Assembly: GCA_001797815.1 (NCBI GenBank)
Contig: MGQK01000110.1
Location: forward strand, 1-6,202
Source of the DNA: Deltaproteobacteria bacterium RBG_13_61_14
Lineage (GTDB): Bacteria; RBG-13-61-14
Direction of reading: 5' to 3'
Length of the DNA stretch: 6,202 bases
Under the pieces are notes generated by a model. The model did not search any database. It saw only the letters and a program-made list of their open reading frames with translations, and had not been told where the DNA came from. How positions within the stretch are numbered: position 1 is the stretch's first letter; each line of letters begins with the position of its first letter. Of the stretch, positions 1 through 6,202 are shown one piece after another. The position numbers and the translations under genes are program-made.

Positions 1-1
1 G

Positions 2-595
2 GCGGAGCCTTATGAGCGCATCATCGCCCTGGCAAAGCAAGCCGGTCCGGGCGCCGGGGGACTGCTGTTCCTGCCCTACCTTTTCGGCGAGCGCACGCCG
101 CACTGGAACCCGCTCTTGCGGGGCGTGCTCTTCGGACTGGCGCCGCACCACGGCAAGGCGCACCTGGCCCGGGCCGCGCTCGAAGGCATTTGCATGTGCC
201 TGGCCCAGGTCCACGAGTTGCTGCAAGCCTCGCCCGGCGGGGTGAGCGAGGTCCGGGCCAGCGGGGGTTTTGCGCGCTCCGCGGCCTGGGTCCAACTCCT
301 GGCCGACATGCTGGGCGCGGCCATCACGCTGCCGCGGGTGCGGGAGAGCTCGGCCCTGGGCGCGGCCATCCTGGGGATGAAGGCAACAGGCGCGATCAAG
401 GATTGGGGAGAAGCCAAGGGACTGATTCCAGTGGGGAGGACGTTCGAGCCTGATCGGGCGATGAAAGATTTTTATCAGGAGCGCTTCCAGGTATTCAAAA
501 AGCTTTATGATCGCCTGGCCGATGAGTTCGAGCGCTGGAAAGAAATTCAAGAGAAAGCGGACGTGGCCGGACGCTCGTCGGAAGAAGGAATTTGA
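2..595 (+). CDS. gntK: Gluconokinase, FGGY family, C-terminal part (5' end outside window)
   Basis: The frame is open from the window edge and gives the last 197 residues of a protein that is normally about 500 long. It phosphorylates D-gluconate to 6-phosphogluconate with ATP in the cytoplasm. Visible FGGY C-terminal-domain motifs are LPYLFGERTPHW (about residues 24-35 of the visible part), RGVLFGL just after it, the ATP-binding segment ASGGFARS (86-93) and ESSALGAAILG (115-125). The pattern SGGFARS, then ESS.LGA.ILG..ATG, then a charged helical tail rich in Phe/Tyr and Glu, recalls Bacillus-type GntK more than xylulokinase or glycerol kinase. The downstream gnd gene supports gluconate as substrate. 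The stop codon shares its last base with the start of the next gene (TGATG). Xylulokinase remains a less likely alternative. No disruption is seen in the visible part. Confidence 0.88.
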   Translation, partial: AEPYERIIALAKQAGPGAGGLLFLPYLFGERTPHWNPLLRGVLFGLAPHHGKAHLARAALEGICMCLAQVHELLQASPGGVSEVRASGGFARSAAWVQLLADMLGAAITLPRVRESSALGAAILGMKATGAIKDWGEAKGLIPVGRTFEPDRAMKDFYQERFQVFKKLYDRLADEFERWKEIQEKADVAGRSSEEGI

Positions 596-1836
596 TGGAC
601 GAGGGGCAAGCCCGGAAGGTCCTGGAGCAAGGGCTCTCGAAAGCCGATCTTCTTGGCCGGCGGGTCCTGGTCCTGACCCCGGACGGCACCCGCAGCGGGC
701 CGATGCCCATGCTCTTCCGGCTGTTCGCCGAGCTTCTGCTCCCCCGGGTGGCCAAGCTCGAATTCCTGATCGCGCTGGGCACGCACCAGCCCTTGAGCGA
801 AGCGGCGCAAAACCGGCTCTTCGGCATCAGCGCGGCGGAGCGGGCGGGCAAGTATGCGGGCATCAGCATCCACAACCACCACTGGGAGCGGCCCGAGACC
901 TTTACCCGGATCGGGACTATTGCCGCGGGCGAGATCGAAGAGCTGAGCGGGGGCTTGCTGCGGCAGGACGTCCCGGTCGCGCTCAACCGCTTGATCCGGG
1001 ACTACGACCACCTCATCCTTTACGGCCCGGTGTTCCCGCACGAGGTCGCCGGCTTCTCGGGCGGGCACAAGTATTTCTTTCCCGGGATCGCCGGCGCGGA
1101 GATCATCAACTTCACCCACTGGCTGGGCGCGCTGATTACCAACTATCAAATCATCGGCCGGCAAGACACCCCGGTGCGGGCGGTGATCGAGCGGGCGGCG
1201 GCGATGGTGGAGAAGCCGGCGACCGGGGTGTGCTCGGTGGTGGAAGGCGATGGCTTGACCGACCTGTTCGTCGGGCCGGTGGCCGAGGCCTGGCGCCAGG
1301 CCGCGGCGCGGGCGGCGGAGAAGCACATCCGCTGGGTGGAGGAGCCTTATTCGTTGGTGATCTCGGTGATGCCGGAGATGTATGACGACCTCTGGACCGG
1401 GGCCAAGGGCATGTATAAGATGGAGCCGGCGGTCGCGGAGGGGGGCGAGGTGATCATCTTCGCGCCCCATATCCGGGAGGTGTCCTATACCCACGGCAAA
1501 ATCCTGGACCAGATCGGCTACCACGTGCGCGACTATTTCCTGAAGCAGTGGGACCGCTTCCGGCATTACCCGGGCGGGGTGCTGGCGCATTCCACCCACC
1601 TCAAGGGCATGGGCCGCTTCGAGCACGGGAAGGAAGAGCCTCGGGTCAAGGTGACCCTGGCCACCGGGATTCCCCGGGAGCGGTGCGACAAGCTCTCGCT
1701 CGGCTACCGGGACCCGAGAGAGCTCCGCCTCGCCGAATTCGAGGGCCGGGAGAAGGAGGGCATCCTGGTGGTGCATCGCGCCGGCGAGATTCTCTATCGC
1801 TTGAATTCGCAGCGGGAGGTCAAGAGTGGCGAGTGA
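595..1836 (+). CDS. larA: LarA-superfamily nickel-pincer 2-hydroxyacid racemase/epimerase, probable D-gluconate 2-epimerase
   Basis: This is a 413-residue cytoplasmic enzyme of the lactate racemase (LarA, DUF2088) superfamily, which uses a covalently bound nickel-pincer nucleotide to invert C2 of 2-hydroxyacids. Family signatures are present: the DGTRSGP loop with D30 and R33, GTH with H64, and PHEVAGFSGGHK with H149 and K159 spaced by ten residues, as are H174 and K184 in Lactobacillus LarA; K159 would be the cofactor-linked lysine. K271 fits LarA K298, but the position of the partner glutamine (Q295) appears to be T268. The ATG at 595 is preferred over the TTG at 592: it overlaps the gntK stop by one base and has AAGGA at 585-589. 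Known superfamily members include D-gluconate 2-epimerases as well as lactate and malate racemases. Placement between gluconokinase and gnd favours gluconate/mannonate epimerisation, which is inference. The cofactor genes larB, larC and larE are not in this window. Confidence 0.87.
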   Translation: MDEGQARKVLEQGLSKADLLGRRVLVLTPDGTRSGPMPMLFRLFAELLLPRVAKLEFLIALGTHQPLSEAAQNRLFGISAAERAGKYAGISIHNHHWERPETFTRIGTIAAGEIEELSGGLLRQDVPVALNRLIRDYDHLILYGPVFPHEVAGFSGGHKYFFPGIAGAEIINFTHWLGALITNYQIIGRQDTPVRAVIERAAAMVEKPATGVCSVVEGDGLTDLFVGPVAEAWRQAAARAAEKHIRWVEEPYSLVISVMPEMYDDLWTGAKGMYKMEPAVAEGGEVIIFAPHIREVSYTHGKILDQIGYHVRDYFLKQWDRFRHYPGGVLAHSTHLKGMGRFEHGKEEPRVKVTLATGIPRERCDKLSLGYRDPRELRLAEFEGREKEGILVVHRAGEILYRLNSQREVKSGE

Positions 1837-3247
1837 ACTCGGCCTGATCGGCCTGGCGGTCATGGGCCAGAACCTGGTCCTGAACCTGGCCGGCCGCGGC
1901 TTCCGGGTCGCGGTCTATAACCGGACCCTGGAAACCGGCCGGCGCTTCCTTAAGGAGCGGACGCCGGGGCTGCCCATCGTCCTGGGCCAGACCCTTGAAG
2001 ATTTTGTGAGGCTCTTGGCCAAGCCCCGGACCGTGCTGCTGATGGTGAAAGCCGGCGCCGCGGTGGACGAGATGATCGCCCGGCTCACTCCGCTCCTCTC
2101 AGCCGGCGACCTGATCCTGGACTGCGGCAACTCCTATTTCTCGGACACCGAGCGGCGGGCCAAAGAGCTCGCGGCCCGGAATCTTCAGTTCATGGGCGTG
2201 GGCGTGAGCGGGGGCGAAGAGGGCGCGCTCTTGGGCCCCAGCATCATGCCCGGCGGCCCGGCCGAGGCCTATGCGCGGGTGCGGCGGATCTTCGAGGCCA
2301 TCGCGGCGCGCACCGAGGACGGGCCGTGCGTGACCCTTGTCGGCCCAAGGGGCGCGGGGCATTACGTCAAGATGGTCCACAACGGCCTGGAATACGGGGA
2401 CATGCAGCTCATCGCCGAGAGCTACCAGATTCTGGAGCAGGCGGGCGGGTTGCCGGCGCCGGCGTTGGCCCAAGCGTTTGCGGAGTTCAACCGGGGGGAG
2501 CTGGCTTCTTACCTGATCGAGATCACGGCGCGCATCTTCCAGGAGTGCGACCCGGACACGGGCAAGCCGATGCTGGAGGTGATCCTGGACCGGGCCGGGC
2601 AAAAGGGGACGGGGCGCTGGACTTCGGAGAATGCGCTGGAGCTTGGCGAGCCGACTCCCACCATCACTGCGGCGGTGGAGGCGAGGAACCTTTCGGCCAA
2701 AAAGGAGCTGCGGGTGCAGGCGGAGGAGGTTATCAAGACCTCGCGCTTGAAAAGTCCTTGGGCAATCCCGCCGGAGAATTTGGTCCCGGCGGTCGGAGAT
2801 GCCTTGTTCGCGGCCAGGCTCGCGCTTTATGCCCAGGGCATGGCCCTGCTCCAGGCGGCTTCAAAGGAGTATGGCTACGACCTGCGCTTGCCGGACCTGG
2901 CCCGGATCTGGAAAGGGGGCTGCATCATCCGCTCGGCGCTCCTGGACGTGATCCGCGCCGCTTTCACGGAGCAGCCGGACCTGCCCAACCTGCTCCTCCA
3001 CCCGAACGTGGTCTCGGCCCTGGCCCAGAGATACGCTTCCTGGGTCAGCGTATGCCAGACCGCCATCGCCTTTGCCATTCCCTGCCCGGCGCTCCTCTCC
3101 GCGCTCGCCTACTTCGAAGGGCTCCGCCGCGGCCGGCTCCCGGCCAACCTGATCCAGGCCCAGCGCGACCTCTTCGGCGCCCATACCTTCGAGCGGGTGG
3201 ACCGGGAGGGGGTTTTTCATCATTCCTGGGACAAAAAGGGGAATTAA
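1826..3247 (+). CDS. gnd: 6-phosphogluconate dehydrogenase, decarboxylating
   Basis: A complete 473-residue enzyme, the usual length of the long (dimeric) Gnd type. It converts 6-phosphogluconate and NADP+ to ribulose 5-phosphate, CO2 and NADPH. The N-terminal Rossmann motif GLAVMGQNLVLN (9-20) and NRT at 32-34 fit NADP+ binding. The active site is conserved: VSGGEEGA (S128, G129, G130), KMVHNGLEYGD with K182, H185, N186 and E189, then AGQKGTGRWT (257-266) and IWKGGCIIRS (361-370). The C-terminal tail supplies R447 and H453, which reach the partner subunit's substrate. The GTG start at 1826 overlaps the larA-like gene by 11 bases and has GGAGG at 1815-1819, six bases upstream, so translational coupling is likely. 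No frameshift or missing catalytic residue is seen. Confidence 0.97.
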   Translation: MASELGLIGLAVMGQNLVLNLAGRGFRVAVYNRTLETGRRFLKERTPGLPIVLGQTLEDFVRLLAKPRTVLLMVKAGAAVDEMIARLTPLLSAGDLILDCGNSYFSDTERRAKELAARNLQFMGVGVSGGEEGALLGPSIMPGGPAEAYARVRRIFEAIAARTEDGPCVTLVGPRGAGHYVKMVHNGLEYGDMQLIAESYQILEQAGGLPAPALAQAFAEFNRGELASYLIEITARIFQECDPDTGKPMLEVILDRAGQKGTGRWTSENALELGEPTPTITAAVEARNLSAKKELRVQAEEVIKTSRLKSPWAIPPENLVPAVGDALFAARLALYAQGMALLQAASKEYGYDLRLPDLARIWKGGCIIRSALLDVIRAAFTEQPDLPNLLLHPNVVSALAQRYASWVSVCQTAIAFAIPCPALLSALAYFEGLRRGRLPANLIQAQRDLFGAHTFERVDREGVFHHSWDKKGN

Positions 3248-3248
3248 A

Positions 3249-3300
3249 GGGACACCATACCTAATTCAACAAAAGATGAGCGAATTAAGTATGGTGTCCC
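3249..3300. repeat. Near-perfect 19-bp inverted repeat (REP/MITE-like hairpin)
   Basis: The left arm GGGACACCATACCTAATTC (3249-3267) and the right arm (3282-3300) are reverse complements at 18 of 19 positions (C/A mismatch 3261/3288), separated by a 14-base loop. It starts two bases after the gnd stop. GAATTA occurs on both flanks (3241-3246 and 3303-3308), two bases outside each arm, as a target duplication might. No T-run follows, so it is not a standard terminator, although it could stabilise the 3' end of the gnd mRNA. From memory, GTATGGTGTCCCC-type arms recur in bacterial genomes near IS200/REP-associated (Y1) transposases; that link is inference. Confidence 0.8.
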
Positions 3301-3305
3301 CCGAA

Positions 3306-3437
3306 TTACAGATCCTGTTCCAGACGAACGGTTGCTTTGCTAGGGTTGCCAAGCTCGTAACGGCGGCGTGAGAGCCAGCCAAGAGAGGCTTGAATGGTTT
3401 TAACTTCAGCACCGCGATTAGTGAACGGAACTTCTTG
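3306..3437 (-). pseudogene. Possible 3' coding remnant, origin uncertain
   Basis: On the - strand the last 43 codons before a TAA (3306-3308) have coding-like codon use and a plausible residue mix (a TNRGAEVKTIQASLGWLS segment, then RRRYELGNPSKATVRLEQDL). The frame stays open further upstream, but there it runs through the terminator hairpin and then antisense to the next gene, and no start codon with a ribosome binding site is seen. The NRGAEVKTIQASLG stretch weakly recalls the GADLKTIQELLGH box of tyrosine recombinases. The histidine is replaced by Trp and no Arg box is visible, so the family cannot be claimed. The remnant ends five bases from the palindromic repeat. Confidence 0.22.
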
Positions 3438-3441
3438 GAAG

Positions 3442-3478
3442 ATCCCCGGGGGTAGGTTTACCTTGCCGGGGATTTTTT
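3442..3478 (+). terminator. Rho-independent terminator
   Basis: The stem ATCCCCGG (3442-3449) pairs perfectly with CCGGGGAT (3466-3473), with a small extra AGG/CCT pairing in the loop, and is followed by six T (3473-3478). It lies about 200 bases past the gnd stop and would end read-through from the gluconate operon before the next gene. Confidence 0.72.
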
Positions 3479-3505
3479 GTGCGCGATGGATTTGCGCGGC
3501 TGAGG

Positions 3506-3531
3506 CTTCGGCCGTGAGCTCAGTCGAACGG
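3506..3531. repeat. Dispersed GAGCTC-centred motif, copy 1
   Basis: CGGCCGTGAGCTC followed by a short spacer and CGAACGG. The core TGAGCTCA (3515-3522) is an 8-bp palindrome, with TTCG and CGAA as outer complementary arms. A very similar copy lies at 5958-5985 and a diverged one at 5320-5342. Confidence 0.6.
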
Positions 3532-3562
3532 TCAGCCACGCCCCTAATGTGTCCATTTGATT

Positions 3563-3570
3563 GGGGGGAG
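3563..3570 (+). promoter_or_regulatory. Shine-Dalgarno site fixing the start at 3576
   Basis: GGGGGGAG lies five bases upstream of ATG 3576. It overlaps the upstream in-frame TTG at 3561, which rules that codon out as the start. Confidence 0.7.
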
Positions 3571-3575
3571 TGAAG

Positions 3576-4784
3576 ATGAATGAGGAAAAGAAGAGTAGCA
3601 AGAGCAAAGTGAGCTGGGTGATAGCCCTGATCGTGGTGCTCTTGGTGTTGGTTGGAGGGGGATGGTGGTTGTGGGGAAAAGATTATCTCAAGGGAGCGGG
3701 AGAACAACCGGAATTGGCCAAGAAGGAACTGCCTAAGAAGCCGATCGAAGCAATGCCGGCGCCGGGGGGAGATGAGGAGAGGCTGGCGGAGGCAGAGAAG
3801 GGAGAAGCAGCTGTCCAGGAACCGACTTTAGCCCAGGAGAAGGAAAAGAAGCCAGCCCAGATGATTGAATACAAGAAGCGTGTGATCCGGGAGTTCAAGT
3901 GGAATGAGGGGGTGGATTCTTTGCATAGAACTCCCAGTTGTGATTATGAAAAATTACCTCCTGGTCTAGATTGTGGAGCACCACTTGGTCCAGATGGTTT
4001 ATTGGTCAACAAGGATGGTGATATATACATATTCGATTTTGATCCATGGGGTGCTAATCTTTATGATTCTAAAGGAGTTTTAAGAAAGAAAGCTTTGGGT
4101 GCCATACCACGTGGTATAGATGGGAAAGGCAATGTGTACTTATCTCATTATATTTATGATTCAGATTTAAATTTAATCAAATCTTATATTCCACCATTGA
4201 GGTTTTTTTCAGTTAGATATTATACTATTTCTGAAGATGGCAAATTATATTTTCTTTATTCTAAGAAGGGCAATCATTTCATATTTGAATGTGATCCTTA
4301 CAGTGACCAGTTAGTCATAGATGAAGAAGTGGCAATATACAATCCTGGCAAATCTCCTAGGATGGTATGTCCTTGTTATGAGATAATTGAAGATGAAGCT
4401 CCTTATTATATAAGGCTTGCAAAATATTGGAAAGAAGGAAGAGGGCATTATAAAGATATAAAAAGCAAGATCATTCCTGATGATGGTTTTAAAATAAGAT
4501 TACAATCTATATTATCGATTGATGCAGGACTGAATACTTACTGGGAATATACTGAAGAAAAATACTCAGGCAATTCAGATATCTCTCGTAAGTATATTGC
4601 CGTTTTAAATAGTAGCGATCAATTCATTGGGAAAATTAGGCTTTGTGATGATTCAGCAATTATTACTAATATGGCATCTTACAGGTATATACATATTGAG
4701 CCCTATTCCGGCAATGTTTATCAACTTTGTGCTCAAGAAGAAATTGCAACCTTAATTGTCTGGGAAAAAGGAGAAGATCAATGA
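3576..4784 (+). CDS. Membrane-anchored protein with charged linker and beta-propeller-like extracytoplasmic domain
   Basis: 402 residues from ATG 3576. I do not recognise a named family. Residues 1-12 are Lys/Ser-rich. A single hydrophobic segment (about 14-33, VSWVIALIVVLLVLVGGGWW) is probably an uncleaved N-in signal anchor with no lipobox. A Glu/Lys/Pro/Ala linker follows (about 36-100). From about 135 on there are propeller-like repeats with turns of the GPDGLLVNKDGDIYIFD type (138-154), GIDGKGNVYLS (180-190), ISEDGKLYFLYS (218-229) and YIHIEPYSGNVYQL (371-384), as in NHL/YVTN-type proteins. Five or so Cys are scattered (122, 133, 265, 267, 357, 385). Base composition falls from roughly half G+C over the anchor and linker to roughly one third from about 3910 (residue about 112), matching the domain junction. 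The stop overlaps the next start (ATGA), so both genes are probably co-translated. The role is unknown; surface or periplasmic sensing or binding is a guess. Confidence 0.8.
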   Translation: MNEEKKSSKSKVSWVIALIVVLLVLVGGGWWLWGKDYLKGAGEQPELAKKELPKKPIEAMPAPGGDEERLAEAEKGEAAVQEPTLAQEKEKKPAQMIEYKKRVIREFKWNEGVDSLHRTPSCDYEKLPPGLDCGAPLGPDGLLVNKDGDIYIFDFDPWGANLYDSKGVLRKKALGAIPRGIDGKGNVYLSHYIYDSDLNLIKSYIPPLRFFSVRYYTISEDGKLYFLYSKKGNHFIFECDPYSDQLVIDEEVAIYNPGKSPRMVCPCYEIIEDEAPYYIRLAKYWKEGRGHYKDIKSKIIPDDGFKIRLQSILSIDAGLNTYWEYTEEKYSGNSDISRKYIAVLNSSDQFIGKIRLCDDSAIITNMASYRYIHIEPYSGNVYQLCAQEEIATLIVWEKGEDQ

Positions 4785-4981
4785 AAAGTCTAATTATTAT
4801 TATAACCACTCTCATCTTTATGCTGATGGTAAAACAATTATATGCTCAAACCGAAAAGGCTGCTTTGCAATACGTAAATCACACATATATTGTAGGGACA
4901 AGGAACTCGGATCGAGGTGAATATATGGATGATAAAATAAAACATCATGAAGCTAATCCTGAAGATTGGGGTCGGTGCTAA
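4781..4981 (+). CDS. Small exported protein with signal peptide, possibly truncated
   Basis: 66 residues from ATG 4781, which overlaps the preceding stop by four bases (ATGA) and has AAGGAG at 4768-4773, seven bases upstream. Residues 1-22 form a clear Sec signal peptide: basic start, hydrophobic core IIIITTLIFMLMV and an LYA|QT cleavage site. The mature part is about 44 residues, polar and acidic/His-rich, with one terminal Cys. AALQYVNHTYIVGTRN faintly recalls the N-terminus of NlpC/P60- or CHAP-like hydrolases, so this may be a beheaded remnant whose catalytic part was lost where the AT-rich segment ends just downstream. It may equally be a genuine small partner of the upstream gene. No function can be assigned. 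Confidence 0.62.
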   Translation: MKSLIIIITTLIFMLMVKQLYAQTEKAALQYVNHTYIVGTRNSDRGEYMDDKIKHHEANPEDWGRC

Positions 4982-5018
4982 ACTTTAAACTTAAGCCTTT
5001 CGACCAACCTAAGGAGCC

Positions 5019-5037
5019 GGGGTCAGGTCTTGACATT
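5019..5037. repeat. Half-palindrome motif at the end of the - strand gene
   Basis: GGGGTCAGGTCTTGACATT. From memory, this string recurs in many bacterial genomes as an arm of REP/IS200-type palindromes; no matching second arm is visible here. It supplies the stop codon and last codons (NVKT) of the 5023-5787 gene, and it lies just after the AT-rich to GC-rich transition. Confidence 0.45.
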
Positions 5038-5787
5038 GGAGAGGGCCTTTCCGATCTCCTCCACCTCTTTTTCCAGCCTCTCGATCTCCTGATCAAAGTT
5101 AAAGTTTTCCAGATCTTTCAGGTCCAGCTCGGCCAGGTGTGCCTTCGGAGGCAATATTGGGCCGCCAAGCGTGACGCTTGGATTCAATTTTGGGCCTTCC
5201 GCTGGTCGGCCCGGAGAACCACCAGAGGTCGCGGCCGGCTTAGCGAAAGCCTTGAGGTCTATTCCGGCATAGTAATCGGGTTCCGGCTCGGGCTTGGGCC
5301 GGCCGGCCGTCGAGAGCCTCCCTTCGGACCGAGCGCTCAGGGCCGAGGGCGGGTTCGAGCGACGTTTGCGGTCTTGTTCGGCCTGGCGATGGAGTTGGAT
5401 GGCTTGGGCTTCGGGAAGCTCGGCCGAGCCGATGTGCTCGGGAATTTTGTAGTTGCGAGGGTAATAGGGGGCGGTGGGCAGGTCCCAGGTGTTGAAATAA
5501 CCATAGCGGTGCAGCTCCTCCAGCGCCTTGCCCAAGCCGCGGTTGGAGCGGATCCCGGTCTGGACCTTGATGTCCCAGTTCGAGACGGTGGCGATCCGGC
5601 TCTCGGGCTCGGCCTTGAACAGGAGATAGAGCCAGACCAGAAAGGCGTTGCCGGTGAGGCGCGGCCGCCAGGGATCAATGAAATATTCCGAGAGCAGGGC
5701 CAGGGGCGGGACCGGCAAAGGCCGGCGTCGGTTTCCCTCGGCCTCGGCCCGGCGGCGGGCGGTGTGCAGAAACTGTTCGTGACTCAT
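5023..5787 (-). CDS. Winged-helix-like protein with proline-rich linker and C-terminal coiled coil
   Basis: 254 residues; no named family recognised. The start ATG (5785-5787) has AGGAGG nine bases upstream on the - strand. After a basic N-terminus (RRRAEAEGNRRR), residues about 44-102 read as a winged-helix fold: a helix TGNAFLVWLYLLFKA, a turn, WDIKVQTGIRSNRGLGKALEELHRYGYF as the helix-turn-helix, and a wing. This layout is common in transcription regulators and phage or plasmid replication initiators. Residues about 140-215 are a low-complexity linker rich in Pro, Gly, Ser and Arg. Residues about 217-250 form a heptad-like coiled coil (LDLKDL...EIERLEKEVEEIGKAL). It is GC-rich like the gluconate operon and convergent with the AT-rich genes, with no terminator between. 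A DNA-binding role is inferred. The extreme C-terminus lies in a repeat-like sequence and may be secondary. Confidence 0.72.
   Translation of the reverse strand: MSHEQFLHTARRRAEAEGNRRRPLPVPPLALLSEYFIDPWRPRLTGNAFLVWLYLLFKAEPESRIATVSNWDIKVQTGIRSNRGLGKALEELHRYGYFNTWDLPTAPYYPRNYKIPEHIGSAELPEAQAIQLHRQAEQDRKRRSNPPSALSARSEGRLSTAGRPKPEPEPDYYAGIDLKAFAKPAATSGGSPGRPAEGPKLNPSVTLGGPILPPKAHLAELDLKDLENFNFDQEIERLEKEVEEIGKALSNVKT
5165..5181. repeat. Perfect 7-bp hairpin inside the winged-helix gene
   Basis: CCAAGCG, a three-base loop, then CGCTTGG. It falls in the linker-encoding part of the - strand gene (residues about 203-208), outside the predicted folded domains. Confidence 0.45.
5320..5342. repeat. Dispersed GAGC-centred motif, diverged copy inside a gene
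   Basis: CCCTTCGGACCGAGCG followed by CTCAGGG, with complementary ends CCCT/AGGG and the palindromic core GAGCGCTC (5331-5338). It aligns with gaps to the copies at 3506-3531 and 5958-5985. It encodes part of the low-complexity linker of the - strand protein. Confidence 0.35.
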
Positions 5788-5796
5788 GACGGCGAA

Positions 5797-5802
5797 CCTC
5801 CT
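5797..5802 (-). promoter_or_regulatory. Shine-Dalgarno site of the winged-helix gene
   Basis: AGGAGG on the - strand, nine bases before ATG 5787. It supports both this start codon and the reality of the gene. Confidence 0.7.
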
Positions 5803-5862
5803 GGAGTTAGAGATAGATGTCTAACCCGGACGAGCGGGAGCCAAAGAAGAGAAGAAGAGTTT

Positions 5863-5888
5863 CACGCAAAGACGCCAAGACGCAAAGG
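5863..5888 (+). repeat. CACGCAAAGACGCC repeat, copy A
   Basis: The unit begins CACGCAAAGACGCCAAGA and continues with CGCAAAGG. It shares 26 positions with copy B apart from one inserted T, and the preceding purine-rich GAAGAAGAGTTT resembles the sequence before copy B. Confidence 0.75.
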
Positions 5889-5944
5889 GTTTAAACTTTC
5901 GGAGAAGAGAAGGTGGCTCAGGTTTCAAGTCTTTCCTCTCCACC

Positions 5945-5969
5945 CACGGCCTTGCCGCCCTCGGCCGTG
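5945..5969. repeat. 7-bp inverted repeat
   Basis: CACGGCC (5945-5951) and GGCCGTG (5963-5969) pair perfectly around an 11-base loop. The right arm belongs to the GAGCTC-centred motif. Confidence 0.5.
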
Positions 5970-5985
5970 AGCTCGGGCCGAACGG
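5958..5985. repeat. Dispersed GAGCTC-centred motif, copy 2
   Basis: CGGCCGTGAGCTC, then GGGC, then CGAACGG. Both conserved blocks are identical to copy 1 (3506-3531); only the 3-4 bases between them differ. Confidence 0.6.
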
Positions 5986-6067
5986 CAAAGAAGCAAAGCC
6001 GCAATGGAACAGCCCTTGGCGGCTTATGATCCTTGGCGTCAGGTTTTTCATCCTTCCTCTTCACCCT

Positions 6068-6095
6068 GGCGGCTTTGCGGCTTGGCGTGAAACTC
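6068..6095 (-). repeat. CACGCAAAGACGCC repeat, inverted copy C
   Basis: On the - strand this reads GAGTTTCACGCCAAGCCGC followed by AAAGCCGCC. It matches the GAGTTTCACGC lead-in and the AAG/CGC rhythm of copy A in opposite orientation. Confidence 0.6.
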
Positions 6096-6143
6096 TCCTT
6101 TCCCTGCCCGCCTGCCGCAAGCTGATCAAAAGAGGAGGATTCT

Positions 6144-6170
6144 CACGCAAAGACGCCAAGACGCTAAAGG
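6144..6170 (+). repeat. CACGCAAAGACGCC repeat, copy B
   Basis: CACGCAAAGACGCCAAGACG then CTAAAGG. It is identical to copy A except for one inserted T, and lies about 280 bases downstream in the same orientation. Confidence 0.75.
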
Positions 6171-6202
6171 TTCCTGTTTCCGGATCCGGGAGCTTGCCGA
6201 GT

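Follow-up and report, generated by a model that had tools for sequence, protein, structure and literature searches.

A GntE-type LarA homolog between a probable gluconokinase gene and gnd in a deltaproteobacterial genome, a predicted D-gluconate/D-mannonate 2-epimerase

The window analyzed here is the whole 6,202-nt stretch of contig MGQK01000110.1 (positions 1 to 6,202, forward strand; GenBank GCA_001797815.1) from Deltaproteobacteria bacterium RBG_13_61_14. Its main features are listed below, with residues numbered as in the protein encoded at 595-1836; the LarA and GntE2 residues used as reference for the alignment are those named in PMC7583248.

2..595, + strand: FGGY carbohydrate kinase, C-terminal part, probable gluconokinase GntK, with its start beyond the contig end
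595..1836, + strand: GntE-type LarA homolog of 413 aa, predicted NPN-dependent D-gluconate/D-mannonate 2-epimerase (4nar match, tree, residues, model)
682..693, + strand: codons D30-R33, catalytic Asp and NPN-contact Arg (LarA D72/R75, GntE2 R41)
784..786, + strand: codon H64, first catalytic His (LarA H108)
1039..1047, + strand: codons H149-E150-V151, second catalytic His and substrate loop E-V of the LarAH groups 18-20 type
1069..1071, + strand: codon K159, NPN-contact Lys position (LarA K184, GntE2 K164)
1117..1119, + strand: codon H175, NPN-contact His (LarA H200, GntE2 H180)
1393..1407, + strand: codons W267-K271, Trp of the alpha-11 substrate region and catalytic Lys (LarA K298)
1826..3247, + strand: gnd, decarboxylating 6-phosphogluconate dehydrogenase of 473 aa (NCBIfam), overlapping gntE by 11 nt

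The 595-1836 ORF runs from ATG 595 to TGA 1836 without an internal stop. Its ATG has one base in common with the TGA of the upstream FGGY kinase gene (593-595), and gnd begins at GTG 1826, within its final bases; both overlaps, of 1 and 11 nt, had been claimed in an earlier reading of the letters (the sequence-only reading) and were confirmed from ORF coordinates. This tight layout supports a single operon of kinase, epimerase-like protein and gnd. The upstream end of the operon was sought, and the window opens at the contig end with the start of gntK outside, so that only the C-terminal 197 aa of the kinase are present. This fragment matched Pfam FGGY_C (106 bits), and its top NCBIfam model was gntK_FGGY (143 bits over the fragment). 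The full-length kinase ortholog in the nearest relative (L005) scored 442 bits with gntK_FGGY versus 340 bits with XylB, each below its curated cut-off (648 bits for gntK_FGGY), and from these matches the truncated kinase is probably gluconokinase GntK. The gnd product scored above the cut-offs of two NCBIfam models, PRK09287 at 631 bits and TIGR00873 at 615 bits.

Just 3' of gnd, at 3242-3307, lies an imperfect inverted repeat of 26 nt with a loop of 14 nt (GGGACACCATACCTAATTC / GAATTAAGTATGGTGTCCC). It resembles a REP-type palindrome, and a REP-associated tyrosine transposase is encoded on contig C34 of the same genome; a connection between the two is a guess. The ORF at 3561-4784 (407 aa), AT-richer than the preceding GC-rich operon and with a membrane-like N-terminal segment, had no match in Pfam and NCBIfam. 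An ORF of 254 aa at 5023-5787 on the minus strand had no significant family match and at most a faint resemblance to a helix-turn-helix (E 0.2). At the intergenic end of the window, a repeat of the 'CACGCAAAGACGCCAAGACGC' type occurs in direct orientation at 5847-5891 and 6128-6172 and inverted at 6064-6100.

Pfam search of the 595-1836 protein found Lar_N alone (72 bits, E=4.7e-20). This E value, together with relatives 50-70% identical that are conserved over their full length, puts the match far from chance. The closest solved protein was GntE2 of Thermotoga maritima (LarAH20, Q9WYS3, PDB 4NAR), at 209 bits, E 9e-61 and 33% identity, versus 34 bits for lactate racemase and 32 bits for Mar2 among solved structures. 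The top NCBIfam model was NPN_18_hexonate (NF052594, putative hexonate epimerase, LarAH group 18), which shares the loop signature described below and matched over nearly the full length; its score of 171 bits lies below the 500-bit cut-off, and the protein is therefore outside the NF052594 equivalog. Lactate racemase NF033504 reached 68.5 bits (cut-off 460) and the MAR model 87 bits, and no NCBIfam equivalog was above its cut-off for this protein.

In a maximum-likelihood tree of 30 proteins, with partial LarA and Mar2 rows and reference rows taken from HMMER alignments, a 100/100 split placed the window protein, its relatives, GntE2 and the distant L114 and L115 homologs on one side and LarA and Mar2 on the other. 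The subclade of the window protein adjoins the GntE2 subclade and is not inside it (supports 80/98 and 95/87). The AlphaFold model (pLDDT 93.6) has the two-domain LarA fold over the whole length, which together with the Lar_N domain places the protein in the LarA superfamily; it superposed on 4nar with Z 50.8 (395 residues at 1.8 A) and on LarA-type chains with Z about 34-36 (best 36.4, at 3.3 A).

All residues expected of the superfamily were present. The six named in the sequence-only reading (D30, R33, H64, H149, K159, K271) were found, as was H175, absent from that list; catalytic D30, H64, H149 and K271 and the NPN contacts R33, K159 and H175 each aligned with their counterparts in LarA, Mar2 and GntE2. 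LarAH groups 18-20 are marked by a loop E-V/S after the second His and a Trp in alpha-11 (PMC7583248), and the alignment shows E150 and V151 in this loop and W267 in alpha-11. The same loop position holds F-F in LarA and Y-K in Mar2; these lactate and malate racemases share the superfamily, cofactor site and catalytic residues with the window protein and differ from it in identity (~21-22%), in loop and alpha-11 residues and in branch. For groups 19 and 20, epimerization of D-mannonate/D-gluconate has been demonstrated (PMC7583248). GntE2 resembles the window protein in fold, catalytic and NPN residues, E-x loop, alpha-11 Trp and the presence of gntK and gnd in one operon, and differs from it by the low identity and separate subclade, by the lack of uxaE or uxuB alongside within the window, and in alpha-14 (A/V in groups 18-20), which reads GVLAHSTH here versus NVAAHVIN in GntE2 (motif AHSTHLKG versus AHVINVRG), as compared over the aligned segments. 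GntE1 of Corynebacterium glutamicum (LarAH19), an assayed gluconate 2-epimerase with a uronate context (PMC7583248), belongs to the same superfamily branch.

The sequence-only reading had proposed a gluconate 2-epimerase, not a lactate racemase, and had named as checks a tree and a search for the NPN genes. The GntE2 match, the 100/100 grouping with GntE2 apart from lactate and malate racemases, the signature and the fold support that proposal, LarA and Mar2 scoring ~30-34 bits against 209 for GntE2. LarB, LarC and LarE are present in the genome: LarB and LarC (449 bits), which passed their NCBIfam equivalogs, are encoded by neighboring genes on contig C55, and LarE (335 bits, above cut-off) separately on C63. 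Two more LarA homologs were found in the genome, on contigs C16 and C34 (loci L086 7091-8497 and L087 6733-8082, L087 on the minus strand); the one on C34 adjoins genes for an acyl-CoA ligase and for a beta-keto acid cleavage enzyme. Both were closest to malate racemase models, below every cut-off, and both fell on the LarA/Mar2 side of the 100/100 split. Because these two presumably need NPN as well, larB, larC and larE alone are no proof of the role of gntE.

Gene neighborhoods were compared across 80 loci with homologs at 55-69% identity, spanning Chloroflexota, Acidobacteriota, Latescibacterota, Planctomycetota, Lentisphaerota and unclassified 'delta' MAGs; contig ends cut many of these loci, and the neighbor counts are therefore lower bounds. 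gnd was present in at least 42 loci (directly downstream in 28). A uxuB-type SDR of the D-mannonate oxidoreductase family, the commonest upstream neighbor, was present in at least 59 by phmmer (directly upstream in 40), a count that may take in some unrelated SDRs, and in 44 under stricter clustering. UxaC was encoded in at least 31 loci and UxaE in at least 28. This neighbor set comprises enzymes for the route from hexuronate through fructuronate, mannonate, gluconate and 6-phosphogluconate to ribulose-5-phosphate, and matches the hexuronate-to-gluconate route proposed for Thermotoga, where the T. maritima operon reads aldH-pelB-gnd-uxaRED-gntEK (PMC3750489). The suggestion in the sequence-only reading that mannonate would feed the 6-phosphogluconate step fits these neighbors (D-mannonate oxidoreductase, gnd, UxaC and UxaE).

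Other arrangements were also seen. A protein of 590 aa encoded on a Saccharobesus litoralis plasmid (L117 7458-9227) carries the annotation GntK/IdnK gluconokinase; it also includes a LarA-like epimerase region and is an apparent GntK-GntE fusion. In Catenovulum, gluconokinase, LarA homolog and larC lie side by side, with larB close by. In L005, gntK is preceded by genes for RNase HII and a phosphoesterase, with no uronate genes. A protein of ~300 aa (L031 7042-7950 type) is encoded directly upstream of gntE in 15 of the 80 loci and had no confident family match (HAD_2 weak, E 0.007). Homologs at 49% identity occur on Embleya plasmids in surroundings that carry no annotation.

UxaC, UxaE, UxuA, Zwf and GntP were not detected in the source genome with single Pfam models, and as this MAG is 95% complete their absence is not certain; UxaC was likewise not found in two relatives of the same order that carry gntE. 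One D-mannonate oxidoreductase SDR scored over cut-off (343 bits), on contig C76, and was rejected as a link to the operon: it lies beside a phosphoesterase in an unrelated neighborhood. With no UxuA, the epimerase would be the sole known exit for mannonate, and gnd may rely on the kinase in the absence of Zwf.

We consider, with a probability of about 0.8, that the gene at 595-1836 encodes a GntE-branch NPN enzyme that would interconvert D-mannonate and D-gluconate in a three-step module with the kinase and gnd. Gene clusters of Thermotoga had led to the proposal of the GntE function (Rodionova et al. 2012, as cited in PMC7583248 and PMC6978723), and GntE1 and GntE2 were assayed as D-gluconate 2-epimerases in 2020 (PMC7583248); the gene belongs to an enzyme branch with a laboratory-shown reaction, as a member of an apparently separate subclade. 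The exact substrate is predicted from homology, signature and gene context, and we infer substrate, direction and mechanism by carrying them over from GntE2 and LarA. Epimerization at C2 would proceed by proton-coupled hydride transfer, in which a catalytic His would remove the hydroxyl proton and the hydride at C2 would pass to NPN, leaving a transient 2-keto acid that would then regain hydride and proton on the opposite face. The FGGY kinase, epimerase and 6-phosphogluconate dehydrogenase, probably co-transcribed, would convert mannonate to gluconate, 6-phosphogluconate and ribulose-5-phosphate in turn. Counted against this reading are the 33% identity to GntE2, the alpha-14 difference, the lack of a passed equivalog, the kinase score below the gluconokinase cut-off, and the non-detection of UxaC, UxaE, UxuA and GntP, which leaves no evident supply of mannonate or gluconate.

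Among the alternatives, the one that survives best, although unlikely, is a GntE-branch epimerase whose native substrate pair would be another sugar acid (a different C2-epimeric hexonate or else an aldarate) and which would use gluconate as a secondary substrate. GntE1 (group 19) has a mannonate KM of 120 versus 17 for GntE2 (units of Table 2 in PMC7583248), and its authors suspect a different native substrate (PMC7583248); the clade of the window protein stands apart from that of GntE2 (80/98, 95/87) with a different alpha-14, and its own genome yielded no UxaC, UxaE or UxuA. However, gnd, which overlaps gntE and is a common neighbor, needs 6-phosphogluconate, and the commonest upstream neighbor is a mannonate oxidoreductase. 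It is very improbable that the enzyme is rightly named and works mainly from gluconate to mannonate, or salvages small stray amounts of aldonates: the genome lacks detected UxaC, UxaE and Zwf, and the two same-order relatives with gntE lack UxaC, but no UxuA mannonate dehydratase to consume mannonate was detected, and the kinase and gnd of the same operon would draw gluconate forward. Least credible is a racemase of lactate, malate or another small 2-hydroxy acid, as automatic annotation would give from the Lar_N match (one homolog is labeled 'lactate racemase domain-containing protein'), since the LarA and Mar2 scores are far below that of GntE2, the loop is E-V and not F-F or Y-K, and the two other LarA-like proteins of the genome are nearer the racemase side; a lactate or malate racemase identity was rejected because the tree, the bit scores, the fold and the signature of the loop all speak against it.

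For this lineage we put forward tentatively, as a possibility with the odds against it, that the kinase-epimerase-gnd module has become detached from hexuronate degradation and would serve as a stand-alone route from aldonate to the pentose phosphate pathway, possibly for a sugar acid other than mannonate. For the family, the GntE-type assignment corrects bare 'lactate racemase domain' labels across a widespread, 50-70% identical clade found in hexuronate and gluconate clusters of Chloroflexota, Acidobacteriota, Latescibacterota, Planctomycetota and others, and suggests that, beyond Thermotoga, uronic acid breakdown is joined to the pentose phosphate pathway by a nickel-dependent link.
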